Positions 38,744 through 46,770 are shown, counted from the stretch's first letter. The stretch is DNA of 64,000 nt from Balneola sp. (GCA_002720745.1 PBJO01000011.1:1-64000), one strand, 5' to 3'. Translations and numbers: made by a program. The notes: a model not told the origin generated them from the sequence alone.

Positions 38744-40057
38744 ATGGAAAAAAAACCTAAGGTCTTAGTTGTTAGCTATTACTGGTATCCATATGCTGGC
38801 GTTGGTACTTACAGAGTTTCTAGATTCGTAAAATATCTTCAACGCTTAGGCTGGGATATAGTAATTTTAACCGCAAAAAAGTCTTCTTCAGGATACATTG
38901 AAGACCCTCACGATCCTCTACTAGTAAATGTAAAAGTATACAGATCATCTATCTTTGAGCCGATCCATTTACTATCAAATAGCAATTCCAGCAAAACTAG
39001 TAGTACACACAATCCTTCAATATTTTACTCAAAGAATAAAGGGCTACTTGCTAAAATAGCTGTTTGGATGCGATTAAATATTCTCATCCCAGATGCTAAG
39101 CTAACATGGAAGTGGTTCGCTGTGCCTTTAGGCAAAAAAGTGATTAAGCAAGAAGCCCCCGATATAATTTTTTCTACCTCTCCACCTCCCACAACGCATC
39201 GCATAGCACAACAATTGGCTACATGGAGTAAAATTCCATGGCTTGCAGACTTTAGAGATCCGTGGACTAATATTTACTATTACGATGAAGCCCCCTTGAG
39301 TCCACTAGCCCAGAAAAAGAATAAACAACTCGAAAAAAAGGTGTTACAATCGGCTGATAAAATCACAGTAGTCAATCATGGTTTTTTTGACAAAATGCCC
39401 GATTCCATAGACTCCAAAATCCAGCGTATCACAAATGGGTTTGATCCTGATCATATCAAACCCGAAAAAAGCAAACCTGAACGAAATAAACAATTCACAA
39501 TTCGATATTTTGGCAATTTAAAAATAAATCAATATCCAAATGCTTTTTTAGAAGCCCTTAGCCAAATCGAAAAGGAATCTCCAAAAATAGCCTGCCGAAT
39601 GCGTTTCGAATTCTTTGGGAGTTTAGATTCCACTATAGAAGCAGATTTAGAGTCAACGTGTAACAAGATTTCATTTGAAAAGAACGCGTTCATTCAGCAC
39701 TCAAGTATGATGGGCTTACTACCCAAGAGTGATCTTTTGCTTCTATCCATTGGAAACTCGAAAAATAGTAGCTATGCCTTATCTACAAAAGTATTTGAAT
39801 ACATGATTTCCGGATCTAAAGTTCTTGGTATTGGCCCCATTCAAGGCGCAGCAGCAGAAATAGTTAACACGACAGGCATTGGGGAGTTTTTTGAGAGAGC
39901 AGATATGAATGGGGTTTATACCTATCTTATTGAATGTTTTAAGGAATATGAGCGCGATAACCAAGCCTTAAATGAAAGGAACTTGGCTATGAATAAATAC
40001 AGCTTTATTCAGTTAAGTAAACAGTTAGATTCGATCTTAAAAGAGCTTATTCATTAG
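38744..40057 (+). CDS. Family 4-type (GT-B) glycosyltransferase
   Basis: The 437-residue protein starts with the GT4 acceptor-binding pattern VLVVSYYWYPYAGVGTYRVS and has an N-terminal Rossmann domain with IIFSTSPPPTTHRIAQQLA, then IPWLADFRDPWTNIYYYDEA. The donor-binding half starts near ITNGFDPDHIKPE. It is in the Wca/ExpC-like subgroup that acts on polysaccharides. It follows YfhO with no spacer and converges on the ligase gene one base away. Donor and acceptor cannot be read. Confidence 0.88.
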   Translation: MEKKPKVLVVSYYWYPYAGVGTYRVSRFVKYLQRLGWDIVILTAKKSSSGYIEDPHDPLLVNVKVYRSSIFEPIHLLSNSNSSKTSSTHNPSIFYSKNKGLLAKIAVWMRLNILIPDAKLTWKWFAVPLGKKVIKQEAPDIIFSTSPPPTTHRIAQQLATWSKIPWLADFRDPWTNIYYYDEAPLSPLAQKKNKQLEKKVLQSADKITVVNHGFFDKMPDSIDSKIQRITNGFDPDHIKPEKSKPERNKQFTIRYFGNLKINQYPNAFLEALSQIEKESPKIACRMRFEFFGSLDSTIEADLESTCNKISFEKNAFIQHSSMMGLLPKSDLLLLSIGNSKNSSYALSTKVFEYMISGSKVLGIGPIQGAAAEIVNTTGIGEFFERADMNGVYTYLIECFKEYERDNQALNERNLAMNKYSFIQLSKQLDSILKELIH

Positions 40058-40058
40058 T

Positions 40059-41528
40059 TTATGGCTTTTTTTGAGCCTTTTTAGTAATCAATGCCTTTCT
40101 TTTCTTCTTACCAGTATGGGCATGTGGTATACTATCCACATAATTAAACTTTGTTGGTATTTTGTATGAATCAAGCGATTCACGCAAAAAATGAACCCAT
40201 TCATACTTTGTGAGCTGTTCGCTTCTTGAAATGATATACGCATATATTTGTTCTCCAGTTAGATCATTTTCCAATGAGATGCAAGCACAATCCTGTACGG
40301 ATGGATGCTGTAGAATCTGATGCTCAATTTCTTGAGGAAATTCTTTTTTGCCTCCAATATTCATTACATCGTCATTTCTACCTTTCATTTGAATGTGACC
40401 GCTGGCTTTATGAATCCCAAGATCCCCCGTTCTAAACCATCCATCTACCAAAACCTGATGACTTCGCTCTGGGTCATTCCAATAACCAGGTGTTTGAATA
40501 GAACCTTTTACCATAATTTCACCTATCTCTCCAGTAGGTAAGGGAGTCATCGATTCATTCATAATAGCAACTTCTACATTTGGCGAGGGCTTACCCAAGG
40601 TATCTAAATGGGCTGCATCGTCATGAAATTCAGTAAATATATTGGCCGCGACCTCTGTCAACCCATAATGCATACAGATTCGAGTGGATGAAAGCTGCTC
40701 TGCTAAATCTCTTTTTTGTGCAGCTGACATGGGCATGCTACCAAATTCAATGTATTTTAACTTCTGAAAATAGGGTATATAATGATCTTTCATGAGTTTT
40801 TTCATAACCTGAAAACCGGTAGGCACCATACATAAACCAGTGGCACCATCTGAAATATGATCAAAAAACCGCTGGGGAAACATAAATCCCTCTTCTAACA
40901 CAGCGGTAGCTCCCATCATCAAGTTTACACGTAACCTCCGAAGACCAAAGGCATGATATAATGGCAAAGGGATTATTTCTTTATCATCATGAGTATTCCC
41001 AATGAATTCGTTAGAATTTCTAACCCCAGCCAAAATATTTAAATGACTCAGTTGTACTCCTTTTCGAGAACCTGTCGTACCTGTAGTGAATAAGATATCC
41101 GCGATCTCATTGCTTTCAGGAAAAGGATTTATTAACTCTGGTTGACGTGTATCGATATCCTGTTCCAAATCTTCAAAGGGAAAATTAGCTTCTAAAGTAG
41201 TTGGAAATAATGATAAGGCAGGATTGATTTGAAGGTAAAGTGCATTACGCTCTACTGATGTCATCCTTGCATCAACCGGTACAGCAACTGCTCCTATTCG
41301 ATGGCAGGCTAAATAAATTGCCGAAAAGCGTAAAGATGACTGACCATGAAAGAGTATTCTATCTCCTCTGTAAACTCCTTTAGCAATAAAATAGTGAGCA
41401 TATGCTTTCACCCACTGCCCAAGTTCTGCATAGCTAAGCGAATTTTCCTTCCATATTATAGCCGTTTTATTTGGCTTCTCTTCAATTACTTGAAAGAAGG
41501 AATGAATAATGGAAGAGGAAGGTGACAT
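40059..41528 (-). CDS. AMP-dependent acyl-activating ligase of the surface-glycan operon
   Basis: The 489-residue ANL-superfamily enzyme has the P-loop ADILFTTGTTGSRKGVQLSH, the adenine motif CMHYGLTEVAANIFTEF, and GWFRTGDLGIHKASGHIQMK with the hinge GRNDDVMNIGGKKEFPQEIE. The C-terminal catalytic lysine region (HTGKKKRKALI) is present. It lies directly downstream of an acyl carrier protein gene (five bases), so the natural reading is that it loads an acid onto that carrier. The acid cannot be told from sequence by eye. Confidence 0.88.
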   Translation of the reverse strand: MSPSSSIIHSFFQVIEEKPNKTAIIWKENSLSYAELGQWVKAYAHYFIAKGVYRGDRILFHGQSSLRFSAIYLACHRIGAVAVPVDARMTSVERNALYLQINPALSLFPTTLEANFPFEDLEQDIDTRQPELINPFPESNEIADILFTTGTTGSRKGVQLSHLNILAGVRNSNEFIGNTHDDKEIIPLPLYHAFGLRRLRVNLMMGATAVLEEGFMFPQRFFDHISDGATGLCMVPTGFQVMKKLMKDHYIPYFQKLKYIEFGSMPMSAAQKRDLAEQLSSTRICMHYGLTEVAANIFTEFHDDAAHLDTLGKPSPNVEVAIMNESMTPLPTGEIGEIMVKGSIQTPGYWNDPERSHQVLVDGWFRTGDLGIHKASGHIQMKGRNDDVMNIGGKKEFPQEIEHQILQHPSVQDCACISLENDLTGEQIYAYIISRSEQLTKYEWVHFLRESLDSYKIPTKFNYVDSIPHAHTGKKKRKALITKKAQKKP

Positions 41529-41533
41529 TCAGC

Positions 41534-41758
41534 TCACGATAATTCTTCAATGATTTGTTTAAAATGAGCTACTGATTCTAGTTTTACTATTTTTTCGGTA
41601 GTAATTTCAATGTCGTATTCATCTTCTATAGCGGTAATAATATTAATATGACCTAAGGAATCCCATTCAGGAATGTCTTTAGGACAAGTTTCTTCATTTA
41701 TTTGGGCATCTGGTGACAACATCAGTGTTTGTCTAATCAGTTCTTCTATGTTGTTCAT
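41534..41758 (-). CDS. Acyl carrier protein of the glycan operon
   Basis: The 74-residue protein (from ATG 41758) has the phosphopantetheine site EWDSLGHINIITAIEDEYDI with the modifiable Ser in DSL. A GTG at 41770, overlapping the upstream LpxD-like stop as GTGA, is an alternative start that adds MRTV. It is sandwiched between the ligase and the LpxD-like acyltransferase, so it is probably a dedicated carrier for that pair and not the fatty-acid-synthesis ACP. Confidence 0.88.
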   Translation of the reverse strand: MNNIEELIRQTLMLSPDAQINEETCPKDIPEWDSLGHINIITAIEDEYDIEITTEKIVKLESVAHFKQIIEELS

Positions 41759-41766
41759 TACTGTTC

Positions 41767-42690
41767 TCACATTTTAGGAATAATTCTACGCCCAATAGCT
41801 TGGTAGCGATCAGGAATAGTTTGAGTTACTGTTGCACCTAATGCAACAAATGCATGATCTCCAATACTAAGTTTATTTAGTATAGTGGCTCCAGGACTAA
41901 TCCAAACATGATCTCCAATAGTAGTAGAACCAGCAATAGAAACCGCACCTGTAATAAGACAATGCTTACCAATTTGCACATTATGTGATATATGCACCGC
42001 TTTAGAGATCTTAGTTCCTTCACCGATTACCGTATCTTGAATAGCACCCCGGTCAATAGTACTACCGGCTCCTACCTCTACCCGATTGGATATTCGTACC
42101 CCACCATTATGTGGAAATCGCTCCCATACTCCATCAGAAGTTTTAGCTAGGCCGAAACCTTCAGCACCTAAAACTACACCAGCTTCAATGACTGCTTCCT
42201 CTCCAATTACCACCCCATCATAGAGGTGACAATTACCATGAATATTAGTTTTAGCGCCAATAACGCACTTACCAATTGTGCAATTAGGTCCTATGCTAGC
42301 TGTAGCATCTATCTCTGCTTCAGGATGTACTACGCAACTGGGATGTACTCCCGTTTCGTTTGTTTTAACAGTAATTGATCGAATCATCCTAGTAAAGGCA
42401 AGTTTTGGGTCTTCCACCTTAATTAGTGTCTTTGTGGATTTCATTTTCGAACTCAACACTATGCGCATATCACACACAACAACGGTTGCCTTTGTTTTTT
42501 CAACAATCTGTTGTTTGTTATCTGCGCTTGGATGACACCAGGTAATAGCTTTTTTGCTTGGGCCGTAAGTTTTGTCTTCAATAGAAGCAACGATATGTAG
42601 TTGATGATTATCAGCCAGGCCCTCACGGCTATAGGCTGCGGTCATCACTTCTAAAAGTTCATCCAGAAAAAAAGGCTGTTTGTAGGCCAT
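41767..42690 (-). CDS. LpxD-like left-handed beta-helix N-acyltransferase
   Basis: The 307-residue product has an LpxD-type N-domain (AITWCHPSADNKQQIVEKTK) and then hexapeptide repeats (about residues 118-290: VVHPEAEIDATASIGPNCTI and onwards). The segment GFGLAKTSDGVWERFPHNGG and the catalytic-His region SKAVHISHNVQIGKHCLIT match LpxD. LpxD adds a 3-hydroxyacyl chain from ACP to UDP-GlcN-acyl. A position beside a dedicated ACP, a ligase and a deacetylase, away from lpxA/lpxB, suggests a specialised paralogue acylating a surface sugar. True lipid-A LpxD cannot be excluded. Confidence 0.8.
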   Translation of the reverse strand: MAYKQPFFLDELLEVMTAAYSREGLADNHQLHIVASIEDKTYGPSKKAITWCHPSADNKQQIVEKTKATVVVCDMRIVLSSKMKSTKTLIKVEDPKLAFTRMIRSITVKTNETGVHPSCVVHPEAEIDATASIGPNCTIGKCVIGAKTNIHGNCHLYDGVVIGEEAVIEAGVVLGAEGFGLAKTSDGVWERFPHNGGVRISNRVEVGAGSTIDRGAIQDTVIGEGTKISKAVHISHNVQIGKHCLITGAVSIAGSTTIGDHVWISPGATILNKLSIGDHAFVALGATVTQTIPDRYQAIGRRIIPKM

Positions 42691-42724
42691 AAATACTGAT
42701 ACTCAGGTTACGTCAGAAATTAAA

Positions 42725-43363
42725 CTACAATTTAAGTCTTTTGACTTCAAATGCCTCAGCAAACATCTCATTAACCTGCACCCCACGGATACGAGCTAAG
42801 CCCTCAATAAATTCTTTTGTAAAATAAGGACGCTGTTTCTCGAACTGTGAATCATATGCTAACATCATCTTCCACTTAAGATCTAAATGCCGCTGCTTTA
42901 GTGGCACAAATGCTTGGGTATCAAAACTGATGTGATTCCAAGGAAGTTCATATCCCCAGATACTAACTTGTTTAAATGCTCTCAAACCTTCGTTGTGAAC
43001 GACCTGATGATCTTGATGCAAATCACTACCTGATGGAACCAATACTAAATCTGGTTTGATTTGCTGACGTAACTTAATCAATTCTTCAAGCAACTCTTGT
43101 CGGTGATAAGACAACATTCTAACCTGATAGTCATAAACAAATAGCTGCTCTTTAGGGATACCTAGAATATCCATAGACTCATGGAATTCATTTCTTAGTT
43201 GTTCAGGATTGGCTCCTTCTGACAGTGAGGCTCTGGCAGTAGAAAAAGCGGCTACAAAGATCTTTTTACCCTCTTCTAAAAAGCGCGCGATCGTTCCACC
43301 ACAACCCAATTCGGCATCGTCGGTGTGTGGGGCTAGAATAAGTACTGTTTGGATGCTTTGCAT
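42725..43363 (-). CDS. PIG-L family zinc deacetylase
   Basis: The 212-residue protein has the PIG-L motifs VLILAPHTDDAELGCGGTIA (zinc ligands) and VPSGSDLHQDHQVVHNEGLR. Family members remove N-acetyl groups from sugars such as GlcNAc-PI, mycothiol precursors or sugar nucleotides. In this operon it could free an amine that the LpxD-like enzyme then re-acylates. The product has no signal peptide, so it acts in the cytoplasm. It sits between the GNAT-like gene and the LpxD-like gene. Confidence 0.9.
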   Translation of the reverse strand: MQSIQTVLILAPHTDDAELGCGGTIARFLEEGKKIFVAAFSTARASLSEGANPEQLRNEFHESMDILGIPKEQLFVYDYQVRMLSYHRQELLEELIKLRQQIKPDLVLVPSGSDLHQDHQVVHNEGLRAFKQVSIWGYELPWNHISFDTQAFVPLKQRHLDLKWKMMLAYDSQFEKQRPYFTKEFIEGLARIRGVQVNEMFAEAFEVKRLKL

Positions 43364-43377
43364 AGGGCTAATTTAGT

Positions 43378-44058
43378 TTATTGTACTTTTTTATAAAAAA
43401 TATGTTCAATCTTAGACAGACTTCGCTTCGAACGAATATGATTTTTTATTACAGCTAGATTAGATAACTGAGTTGTATTGATTAATGTAAATGGATAGCC
43501 TATGTGGTTGATCAGGAATTGCTGCATCTTAATATGCAATTTTTTTCCACGTGCTTTTGGGATAACCCCTGTCATTAGTCCCTTATATGTTTGCTCATCA
43601 TTTATTTTTAACATAAAAAATCCAACCATTTCTTCGCCGATTTCAACAACAGCGGTTAAAACACTTGGATCATTTATATTGTTTGTAATTGCTGCACTGT
43701 AATATTTCTCACAAGCACTATCATTGAAGAATATTGGGTTATTAAAACGGGTTTTATATCCCTTATTTTTACACATGGATTCTTCGTTCAATGCTGAAAT
43801 AAATGAATGGTCACTCTTATTGATTAAACGAATTCCTTTATACTCTTTTTGATTTGGCTCAACCTTAGTTTCAAACTGAATAAATGACTCTACCAATGAA
43901 AATCCATGTTGCTGAGCCTTAATAATTCCTGAAAAATTATCACTCAACAGCCTTAGTTCATACAGACCTTGCTTGACACACAAATTTAACATGTTCGCGG
44001 AATCCATTCTATACCATGATAAACCATAAAAATCAGTCATCCATTGGTCTAATTTCAT
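43378..44058 (-). CDS. GNAT-like acyltransferase, possibly WecD-type
   Basis: The 226-residue product resembles a GNAT fold: a diverged N-terminal half, then a core with AAITNNINDPSVLTAVVEIG and EEMVGFFMLKI, a loop at GVIPKARGKKLHIKMQQFLI (acetyl-CoA-binding pattern RxxG/A), and a C-terminal beta-alpha pair TLINTTQLSNLAVIKNHIRS. WecD, which acetylates dTDP-Fuc4N, has a similar layout, and this gene is near wecE- and wecF-like genes. Both this protein and the adjacent hexapeptide protein are candidates for that step. Similarity seen by eye is limited. Confidence 0.6.
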   Translation of the reverse strand: MKLDQWMTDFYGLSWYRMDSANMLNLCVKQGLYELRLLSDNFSGIIKAQQHGFSLVESFIQFETKVEPNQKEYKGIRLINKSDHSFISALNEESMCKNKGYKTRFNNPIFFNDSACEKYYSAAITNNINDPSVLTAVVEIGEEMVGFFMLKINDEQTYKGLMTGVIPKARGKKLHIKMQQFLINHIGYPFTLINTTQLSNLAVIKNHIRSKRSLSKIEHIFYKKVQ

Positions 44059-44550
44059 TTAATTATTTTTTTTATACGGTTTTGCGGGATTACCAAACCA
44101 AATCTCATTATCGGGAACATCTTCGCGTACTTGTGAGCACGCACCAATTACACAATTATTCCCAATAGAGGTATTAGGCATTAGGGTAACATTAGCGCCA
44201 ATCATGGTACCATGACCGATTCCCTTTACTTTTTTAACATCATTTTGTTCTAAATTTGGTGTATCTGTTAAAACAAACGAATACTTAATTAGACAATTAT
44301 CACCTATGACTGCATTTGCTGAAATAGTACACCTGCTACCCATTTTAGTATTATTCCCAATGGTTACATTATTTCTTATTTCACAATATGCAGTAAATGA
44401 ACAATTTGATCCGATTTTTGCCCCTTTCCTCACTATACAGAATGGTCCAATTGTTGTATTATCACCAATTTCAACATCATCCTCAACTAATGCTAAGGGA
44501 TGGATTTTTACATTAGTCCCGATCATTGTGTTTTTTGAGATCATATTCAA
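44059..44550 (-). CDS. Hexapeptide-repeat (LbH) acyltransferase
   Basis: The 163-residue product is nearly all left-handed beta-helix hexapeptide repeats, for example VKIHPLALVEDDVEIGDNTT, and IGPFCIVRKGAKIGSNCSF. It ends with the WbbJ/FdtC-like cap NEIWFGNPAKPYKKN. Relatives N-acetylate amino-dideoxy sugars in sugar-nucleotide pathways. It lies one base from the WecE-like gene, so acylation of the WecE product (dTDP-Fuc4N) is plausible. The GNAT-like gene next to it is the rival candidate. Confidence 0.85.
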   Translation of the reverse strand: MNMISKNTMIGTNVKIHPLALVEDDVEIGDNTTIGPFCIVRKGAKIGSNCSFTAYCEIRNNVTIGNNTKMGSRCTISANAVIGDNCLIKYSFVLTDTPNLEQNDVKKVKGIGHGTMIGANVTLMPNTSIGNNCVIGACSQVREDVPDNEIWFGNPAKPYKKNN

Positions 44551-44551
44551 G

Positions 44552-45688
44552 TTAATTATTAGTTAAAAATAATTGTGCTGCATCTATTACTCGTTGTTGC
44601 TCTCCGTGAGTTAAACTAAAGAAAATAGGTAAACGAACGAGCTTTTGAGCATTTTCCACTGTTCTAGGTAAATGATAACTATCTAAATGTTGATGGGCAA
44701 AATTACTGGTATGTAGTGGTACATAATGAAAGACAACCAGTATGTTTTTACTTTTCATGTGGCTTATAAAGCTATCTCGTTGTTCTGAACTTTCTAGTAG
44801 TAAATAGAACATATGAGCATTTGAAATAGTGCTATTGGGCACAATTGGTAGAGTAACTATATTTTTATCAAACTCTGAAAAAGCCTTATGGTATCGTTGA
44901 TAGAGTTCATTCCTTTTGAGTTGAATTTCATCCAAGTATTCTAATTGAGCTTTTAGAACGGCCGCATTAATATCCGATGGTAGAAAGCTTGACCCGATAT
45001 CTACCCATGAATACTTATCCACCTCTCCCCTATAAAATTTACTTCTATTAGTCCCTTTCTCTCTGATAATCTCAGCTCTTGCTTTTAAACATGGGTCATT
45101 GATAATTAATGCACCACCTTCTCCCATGGAGATATTTTTAGTTTCATGGAAAGAATAACAGCCCAGATGGCCAATTCCACCTAAATATTTATCTTTGTAT
45201 TGCGCATTTATTCCCTGTGCCGCATCTTCTACTACCCAAAGTTCATGCCTCTGGGCAATGTCCATAATAGTATCCATTTCACAGCTAACCCCTGCATAGT
45301 GTACGGGCATAATTGCCTTTGTATAATTGGTTATGGCTTGTTCAATCAACCTCTCATCTATATTTTGAGTGTCTGGACGGATATCAACAAACACGGGTTT
45401 AGCACCTCTTAATACTACAGCATTTGCCGTTGAAACAAATGTATAAGAAGGCATTATAACTTCATCACCCGGACCAATATCTATAAGTAACATTGCCATT
45501 TCTAATGCATGTGTCCCACTCGTTGTCAGAAGAACTTTTTCTAAGCCAAATTTCTCTTCTATAAATGATTGGCACCAGTGCGTGTAAAACCCATCACCTG
45601 AAACCTTATTCTTAAGGTATGCATCTTCTATATACTTTAGTTCTGGCCCGTATAAATTTTGTCTATTAAATGGTATTCGGTCTATCAT
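44552..45688 (-). CDS. wecE: dTDP-4-amino-4,6-dideoxygalactose transaminase (WecE-like)
   Basis: WecE converts dTDP-4-keto-6-deoxyglucose to dTDP-Fuc4N using PLP. The 378-residue product matches the family strongly: GPGDEVIMPSYTFVSTANAV, VPVHYAG-type PVHYAGVSCEMDTIMDIA, VVEDAAQGI, the PLP-Lys segment GCYSFHETKNISMGEGGALI, and RAEIIREKGTNRSKFYRGEV. Length is normal. It overlaps the WecF-like gene by four bases. This points to Fuc4N-containing glycan synthesis; the dTDP-glucose genes are not in the window. Confidence 0.92.
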   Translation of the reverse strand: MIDRIPFNRQNLYGPELKYIEDAYLKNKVSGDGFYTHWCQSFIEEKFGLEKVLLTTSGTHALEMAMLLIDIGPGDEVIMPSYTFVSTANAVVLRGAKPVFVDIRPDTQNIDERLIEQAITNYTKAIMPVHYAGVSCEMDTIMDIAQRHELWVVEDAAQGINAQYKDKYLGGIGHLGCYSFHETKNISMGEGGALIINDPCLKARAEIIREKGTNRSKFYRGEVDKYSWVDIGSSFLPSDINAAVLKAQLEYLDEIQLKRNELYQRYHKAFSEFDKNIVTLPIVPNSTISNAHMFYLLLESSEQRDSFISHMKSKNILVVFHYVPLHTSNFAHQHLDSYHLPRTVENAQKLVRLPIFFSLTHGEQQRVIDAAQLFLTNN

Positions 45689-46770
45689 TCTTTGTTAAAT
45701 AAATCTAATAACTGTTTTACTAAGGTTTTTTTTGAAAAAACTTCACCCATTATACGACGATTAGATTTGGACTGGGTTTCTAAAATTGGTTTTAATGTAA
45801 TGTCTTCCGATGAACCAATAATTATTCCCAATTTTTTAAAATATACGGAATGATTTGCCTCAGGACGCAAATAAACAGTTGCACCGTTTGCTAATAAATA
45901 GGTAATATTCCCCATACCTTGTTGTCTCTCTTGGGGAAAGATAGCCATATTAATTTCGGATAAATAACTACGGTAGCTGCTTAAAGAAAGAAGTTTCGGG
46001 ACAGGAATAAAATTATCACCAAACAATTTATAACCTATAGTTTTGATTTGCTCTAAATTCTCATTAAAACCGTATGATAGAGGCATATATAATGAGTAAT
46101 CATCCTTAGTTGATAAACGTTGATAGAGTTGATTTAATATTCTCATATGCTCATTTGATGGATCAGCCGAATGACCAATCATTATTTTCATTGAAGTTTG
46201 TTGAATAAATTCAACGGGTTCTGGTTCAGGCTTTTCTGTGAAATCAATTACGTTACTTGGATATTTGAACGACCAAATAGGTGTTGAATCAATATTAAAA
46301 AATGTCCTGATATCATTATACTCTCCTGGCATACCTACTGCTATATAACCAATATTCCGTACCGCCTTTGTTTGAATCAAAAGCAGGATCTTATCTCTAA
46401 AATTAAGAGTGGACTTTTTAAATTTATGTAATTCTGCACCCCAATAGAACCATACTCCTTTTTCTCGAAATAATGGCGCACCTAGAAGGATTATAAGCAT
46501 AGTCAATAATTCATTAAGTCCATGTAGAATTACTTTGTCAGCCCGAATTAATTCCTTACTAAAGCGCCATAAAAAGAAGGGTTGCAAAATCAAGTTAAAA
46601 AGAGAGTACTTTTGGAGTACTATATGTTGATTGCTAGATACTAATTGCTCATCCTTTTTTTTCCACACAAAATAAAGGTGGCTATTCTCTCGGTCTACCT
46701 CATTTACAAACTCAATGAAATCCCTTATTAGAATACTTTCAGTGCCAATATGTACGACGTGCTTTTTAAT
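45685..46770 (-). CDS. wecF: WecF-like Fuc4NAc transferase (GT56); probable AUU start
   Basis: GT56 enzymes transfer 4-acetamido-4,6-dideoxygalactose to a lipid-linked sugar. The product has FYWGAELHKF, MKIMIGHSADPSNEHMRILN, YMPLSYGFNENLEQIKTIGY and IFPQERQQGMGNITYLLANG, all matching WecF. The first GTG (46668) gives 327 residues and lacks the N-terminal strand. The frame continues upstream as HVVHIGTESILIRDFIEFVN, equivalent to the WecF start. An ATT at 46768-46770 gives 361 residues, close to E. coli WecF. No ATG, GTG or TTG lies in that extension before a TAA. Confidence 0.85.
   Translation of the reverse strand: MKKHVVHIGTESILIRDFIEFVNEVDRENSHLYFVWKKKDEQLVSSNQHIVLQKYSLFNLILQPFFLWRFSKELIRADKVILHGLNELLTMLIILLGAPLFREKGVWFYWGAELHKFKKSTLNFRDKILLLIQTKAVRNIGYIAVGMPGEYNDIRTFFNIDSTPIWSFKYPSNVIDFTEKPEPEPVEFIQQTSMKIMIGHSADPSNEHMRILNQLYQRLSTKDDYSLYMPLSYGFNENLEQIKTIGYKLFGDNFIPVPKLLSLSSYRSYLSEINMAIFPQERQQGMGNITYLLANGATVYLRPEANHSVYFKKLGIIIGSSEDITLKPILETQSKSNRRIMGEVFSKKTLVKQLLDLFNKE

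Follow-up and report, generated by a model that had tools for sequence, protein, structure and literature searches.

A conserved four-gene unit combining a PIG-L deacetylase with an LpxD-like acyltransferase, a candidate sugar N-acyl remodelling cassette in Balneolaceae

The 64,000-nucleotide stretch of Balneola sp. DNA that we analyzed (GCA_002720745.1 PBJO01000011.1:1-64000, hereafter the window) carries four consecutive minus-strand open reading frames (ORFs) that encode, in this order, a PIG-L family deacetylase, an LpxD-like acyltransferase, an acyl carrier protein (ACP), and an acyl-activating ligase of the ANL superfamily. An earlier note, made from the sequence alone, had called these four genes and their tight spacing, and both calls held: 34 bp separate the PIG-L and LpxD-like genes, 5 bp separate the ACP and ANL genes, and the LpxD-like and ACP genes overlap by 4 bp, or not at all if translation of the 78-aa ACP ORF begins at an alternative ATG at position 41758. 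The motifs that it had listed, namely, the PIG-L zinc motifs, the LpxD catalytic histidine, the DSL site of the ACP, and the ANL motifs, were recovered in our alignments. We propose that the quartet is probably an exchangeable cassette that remodels the N-acyl group of a sugar within a surface-glycan locus.

Relatives of the PIG-L protein and of the ligase were sought in 296 genomes of the phylum and 92 genomes of the family, and relatives of the LpxD-like protein were sought in the 296 phylum genomes and in 245 genomes of the class. The clade of the LpxD-like protein comprised 13 of the 92 Balneolaceae genomes, and neighborhood maps showed an identical gene order of the quartet in all 13, with the ligase truncated by a contig end in one of them (G303). 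The cassette ACP was found in 13/13 quartets, and the ANL clade consisted of the same 13 genomes plus G334. Purifying selection acts on each of the four genes, with ratios of nonsynonymous to synonymous substitution rates of 0.014 to 0.20. Together, the shared order and the selection establish that the four genes are a real conserved unit, beyond chance, as the earlier note had asked of a neighborhood search. The PIG-L clade extended to 19 of the 92 family genomes: 13 have the LpxD-like/ACP/ANL trio, and in the remaining 6 PIG-L has different partners, located at this locus or close to it. Since the trio was always accompanied by PIG-L whereas PIG-L was also found without the trio, the dependence is one-way, of the trio on PIG-L. 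Two clade-specific peptides, searched against 84,980 species genomes, retrieved nothing beyond the quartets of Balneolaceae and two distant sequences from the rumen, a result that cannot show absence outside the family.

Table 1. Cassette genes and neighboring features in the window
Feature	Coordinates	Strand	Basis
PIG-L family de-N-acetylase, 212 aa	42725..43363	minus	PF02585 and zinc motif
LpxD-like left-handed beta-helix N-acyltransferase, 307 aa	41767..42690	minus	NF002060 over cut-off
Stand-alone acyl carrier protein, 74-78 aa, DSL site	41534..41770	minus	WDSLGH motif
ANL acyl-activating ligase, 489 aa	40059..41528	minus	PF00501 and PF13193 over cut-off
WecD-like GNAT acyltransferase (context, exchangeable)	43378..44058	minus	PRK10975 46 bits, below cut-off
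Hexapeptide acyltransferase (context)	44059..44550	minus	PF00132 123 bits
WecE-type dTDP-4-amino-4,6-dideoxyhexose transaminase (context, exchangeable)	44552..45688	minus	NF008687 565 bits, over cut-off
WecF-like GT56 glycosyltransferase (context, exchangeable)	45685..46668	minus	PF07429 59 bits, over cut-off
GT4-type glycosyltransferase (constant locus flank)	38744..40057	plus	PF13439
YfhO-like membrane protein, 825 aa	36266-38743		below Pfam cut-off

In the scheme that we propose, PIG-L would remove the N-acetyl group of an N-acetylhexosamine (HexNAc) residue, either nucleotide or lipid linked. The ligase, judging from its family and its linkage, would adenylate a carboxylic acid other than an alpha-amino acid and load it onto the phosphopantetheine of the dedicated ACP, and the LpxD-like enzyme, with the conserved histidine of its family as a general base, would pass the acyl group to the exposed amine. 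The order of deacetylation followed by reacylation fits because the trio never occurs without PIG-L and PIG-L sometimes occurs without the trio. The earlier note had advanced the same scheme; the conserved unit and the dependence of the trio on PIG-L agree with it, and the substrate, the acid, and the use of the ACP as donor are parts that we infer.

The other partners of the PIG-L clade were WbqC (G262, G327, and G310), a second LpxD-like protein (G175 and, likewise, G379 from another family), or a protein of no known family (G046 and G139). An LpxD-like protein of another clade was paired with PIG-L in two families (L043 and L146). Partners differed between genomes of one genus in genera g2, g5, and g6, and Balneolaceae PIG-L sequences linked to WbqC were interspersed among the quartet-linked ones in a bush-like region of the tree, a pattern consistent with partner exchange on one deacetylase type. 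In the wider phylum, PIG-L relatives adjoined WbqC with or without a GNAT acyltransferase (L036, L121, L129, L037, L046, and L045), and PylC-like ATP-grasp enzymes lay directly 3' of PIG-L in two loci (L040:10672-11760 and L041:1857-2912), the L041 deacetylase being the C-terminal portion of a 440-aa ORF. An ATP-grasp enzyme in this position might join an amino acid to the amine of a sugar through an amide bond. WbqC recurred beside PIG-L, twice with a GNAT protein as well, and might have an N-acyl or aminoacyl role; we found no function for WbqC in the literature, our coverage of which was without most subscription journals. A protein of ∼370 aa (X373) adjoined PIG-L at the same locus in two genera (L038:10264-11385 and L042:10302-11414; 51% identity); X373 matched no Pfam family above the cut-off and was ruled out as a further acylating enzyme on that ground.

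The cassette lies in a locus with one constant flank, made up of ptsI, HPr, gatC, the YfhO-like membrane protein, and the GT4 enzyme, whose gene adjoins the cassette in every quartet locus with a long enough contig. The other flank often contains Wzx and hisS. Upstream of the quartet, WecF, WecE, and WecD are present in most genomes of the window's genus and in two genomes of another genus. L122, which belongs to the window's own genus, has genes for two sulfotransferase-like proteins upstream of the quartet, together with one for a glycosyltransferase. Among loci from other genera, L124 and L032 have a DegT transaminase, a sulfotransferase, and glycosyltransferases at this place, and L033 has DegT and another LpxD-like protein. 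The WecD-like GNAT protein is not upstream of the quartet in any of these four loci. Retention of the quartet in loci without WecF, WecE, and WecD, or with other genes in their place, means that it is not bound to the WecE sugar, so that the sugar it modifies is probably not the WecE product. The earlier note had argued from the WecE/WecF-like genes to a lipid-linked glycan as the target; these neighbors are indeed present, but the quartet persists without them in L122, L124, L032, and L033. The same loci bear on the alternative that the trio acylates a 4-amine made by WecE, on dTDP (deoxythymidine diphosphate)-Fuc4N or a similar sugar, with PIG-L as an unrelated neighbor. WecE scores over its cut-off and adjoins the quartet, RmlB is encoded elsewhere in the genome, and the tetronate genes of Vibrio cholerae O1 acylate perosamine, an amine made by a transaminase (PMC3441752). 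We nevertheless consider this alternative unlikely, given that the quartet is retained without the Wec proteins even within one genus, that the trio never occurs apart from PIG-L, and that the amine already has a WecD-like acyltransferase of its own. As the sole target, the WecE product is weakened by the quartets without WecE.

The LpxD-like protein passed the LpxD subfamily model NF002060 (222.2 bits versus a cut-off of 207) but fell below the cut-off of the LpxD equivalog model TIGR01853 (198.4 versus 242.5 bits). The quartet members formed a clade of their own (support of 100/100), apart from true LpxD, and their sister (95/94) was a protein of G009 that comes after a CE4-type polysaccharide deacetylase (locus L116); the true LpxDs were weakly supported as one group (79/54). 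In Escherichia coli LpxD, H239 is the catalytic base, G257 is the oxyanion glycine, F41 matters for acceptor binding, Y47 and H276 are located at the uracil and the pyrophosphate, and D232 recognizes the 3-hydroxyl group on the acyl chain (PMC6286764). H239 and G257 were kept in all aligned quartet members. In the same sequences, F41 is replaced by W, which retains only the aromatic character, Y47 and H276 are both replaced by K, and D232 is replaced by S, whereas every true LpxD and the other LpxD-like proteins in the alignment have Asp at this position. The changed residues fit an N-acyltransferase that would have the same chemistry with an altered acceptor and acyl group. An AlphaFold model (pLDDT of 76) had LpxD as its best matches (E value of 2e-5, TM score of ∼0.25) and added nothing over the sequence because the beta-helix was poorly built.

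LpxC was detected in 0/38 genomes of the order (this one and 37 relatives), with positive results for the E. coli, Caulobacter, Synechococcus, and Bacteroides controls, and neither LpxB nor another LpxD was found in the genome of the window, which is 98.6% complete. The order of the window organism seems to lack lipid A. The earlier note had held that the target was probably not lipid A, and the separate clade and the missing LpxC and LpxB bear this out. It had also named two observations that would point to a lipid A role: the absence of any other lpxD, which is the case here, and clustering with lipid A LpxD, which is not.

The cassette ACP scored below the cut-offs of TIGR00517 (36.3 versus 70.45 bits) and PF00550 (16 versus 20.8 bits); its WDSLGH phosphopantetheine site is invariant across the cassette ACPs. 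By far the best solved match in a profile search was 2LML (E value of 5e-11), annotated as a putative acyl carrier protein, which we take to be the Geobacter protein GmACP3. One canonical ACP, distinct from that of the cassette, is encoded on contig C10. The ligase exceeded the cut-offs of PF00501 (202 bits) and of PF13193, the C-terminal domain, and contains the motifs TTGTTG and GKK, the latter invariant in five members. The Asp that anchors the alpha-amino group in adenylation domains aligns with Ala193 of the ligase, so an alpha-amino acid substrate is unlikely, and an amino-acid-activating ligase was ruled out on the missing Asp. The score with the amino acid adenylation model TIGR01733 was likewise below the cut-off (171.5 versus 317.4 bits). 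The nearest solved single-domain relatives are oxalate-, malonate-, feruloyl-, and o-succinylbenzoyl (OSB)-coenzyme A (CoA) ligases, and also fatty acid ligases, which weakly favors a small or aryl acid as the predicted substrate. An AlphaFold model of the ligase matched MatB, MenE, feruloyl-CoA ligase, McbA, and DltA about equally and does not name the acid. A related ACP (39%) and ANL ligase (37%) occur in locus L165 (G334:C68, 473-5484; bin 9% contaminated), where NeuB-like, NeuC-like, 380-aa GNAT-like, ACP, and ANL proteins are encoded in a row, the NeuB and NeuC names resting on a reading of the translations. L165 shows the apparent carrier/ligase pair in another amino-sugar setting, a putative nonulosonic acid locus.

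The missing LpxC and LpxB, together with the LpxD ancestry of the acyltransferase, could also mean that the product of the quartet is an N-fatty-acylated glucosamine glycolipid replacing the absent lipid A. We give this possibility little credence, as the quartet occurs in just 13/92 family genomes and within a variable glycan locus, the residue that reads a 3-hydroxy-acyl chain is altered (D232 to S), and the closest solved ligases mostly use short or aryl acids.

The PIG-L protein matched PF02585 with 76.2 bits (cut-off of 28.2) and contains the motifs PHxDD and H116-Q-D-H119; H13, D15, D16, H116, Q117, and H119 were invariant in an alignment of 15 sequences. Its nearest solved relatives are diacetylchitobiose deacetylase and BshB1, and the teicoplanin- and A40926-type deacetylases are weak relatives. 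BshB1 was also its best NCBIfam match, as would be expected if PIG-L acted as BshB in a pathway for a bacillithiol-type thiol or another small molecule, yet the protein reached 74 bits with TIGR04001, which has a cut-off of 182.5. Three further PIG-L genes are located elsewhere in the genome, and the cassette sits in a glycan locus with a flippase and glycosyltransferases, all of which makes a bacillithiol-type function very improbable. That the acyltransferase is a true lipid A LpxD with chance neighbors is barely tenable and was rejected: it is the sole LpxD-like gene of its kind in the genome and exceeds the NF002060 cut-off, but LpxC and LpxB are absent, the clade is separate, the residues are altered, the C-terminal domain is missing, and PIG-L, ACP, and ANL genes always lie beside it.

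Several observations weigh against a cassette for N-acyl remodelling. Some PIG-L partners, X373 in L038 and L042 and WbqC, are not evident acylating enzymes, and PIG-L has no partner in L044; for these reasons the pattern of partner swapping is suggestive only. The LpxD-like protein stops short of the C-terminal ACP-recognition helices of E. coli LpxD, so its use of the ACP is deduced solely from linkage. What is said here of the sugar, the acid, and each step of catalysis is a prediction from sequence and linkage, and the quartet is limited to one family within the genomes searched. More tentatively than the cassette itself, we suggest that a fixed PIG-L "socket" might expose an amine and that the enzymes that re-dress it might be swapped as cassettes, the LpxD-like/ACP/ligase trio, a second LpxD-like protein, or WbqC, with ATP-grasp enzymes elsewhere in the phylum. 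Antigen diversity would then arise through the N-acyl group and not the sugar, and an LpxD-type enzyme would have been repurposed after or without lipid A.

The logic of deacetylation and reacylation has precedents. LpxC and LpxD of the Raetz pathway are likewise a zinc de-N-acetylase followed by an ACP-dependent beta-helix N-acyltransferase with the same fold and catalytic histidine. In contrast, the cassette has PIG-L in place of LpxC as well as a dedicated ACP and ligase, its genome contains no LpxC or LpxB, and its acyltransferase has a changed uracil Tyr, pyrophosphate His, and acyl-hydroxyl Asp and lacks the ACP-binding helices. In tunicamycin biosynthesis (TunE, TunC, and TunK), a PIG-L enzyme deacetylates N-acetylglucosamine (GlcNAc), another enzyme re-acylates it, and a dedicated ACP is present; in the teicoplanin and A40926 pathways, PIG-L deacetylation of GlcNAc is coupled with a separate re-acylating acyltransferase. 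Unlike the cassette, these systems make antibiotics with unrelated acyltransferases and have no LpxD-like enzyme. NodB, NodA, and NodF of rhizobia deacetylate a GlcNAc residue and then N-acylate it from an ACP-borne chain, but they involve a CE4 deacetylase, an unrelated acyltransferase, and a signal molecule. In V. cholerae O1, an ACP and a ligase load a small acid destined for a sugar amine. The tetronate genes concerned, VC0248 to VC0252 (rfbK/L, also named wbeK/L), belong to the O-antigen locus (PMC3441752). This likeness is one of gene roles, and there the amine is made by a transaminase, with no PIG-L. Thus, the remark of the earlier note that it knew of no described pathway with exactly this four-gene logic was too strong. 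Within the literature coverage given above, we found neither the exact quartet nor this logic combined with an LpxD-derived transferase in bacteria that lack lipid A genes, and the cassette brings known enzyme types together in a new way.

If the proposed reading is true, the quartet provides a testable route from an ordinary HexNAc to sugars with non-acetyl N-acyl groups, with its own carrier and ligase, in a group with little-known surface chemistry and seemingly without lipid A. In that case, PIG-L genes of glycan loci could also serve as markers for hidden N-acyl variation.

Two minor observations concern the surroundings of these genes. The YfhO-like protein was a constant neighbor of the glycan locus in Balneolaceae and also in G379. 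Downstream of the LpxD-like gene of L116, an ORF (L116:12107-17287) encodes a protein of 1726 aa in which several glycosyltransferase and methyltransferase domains are fused.

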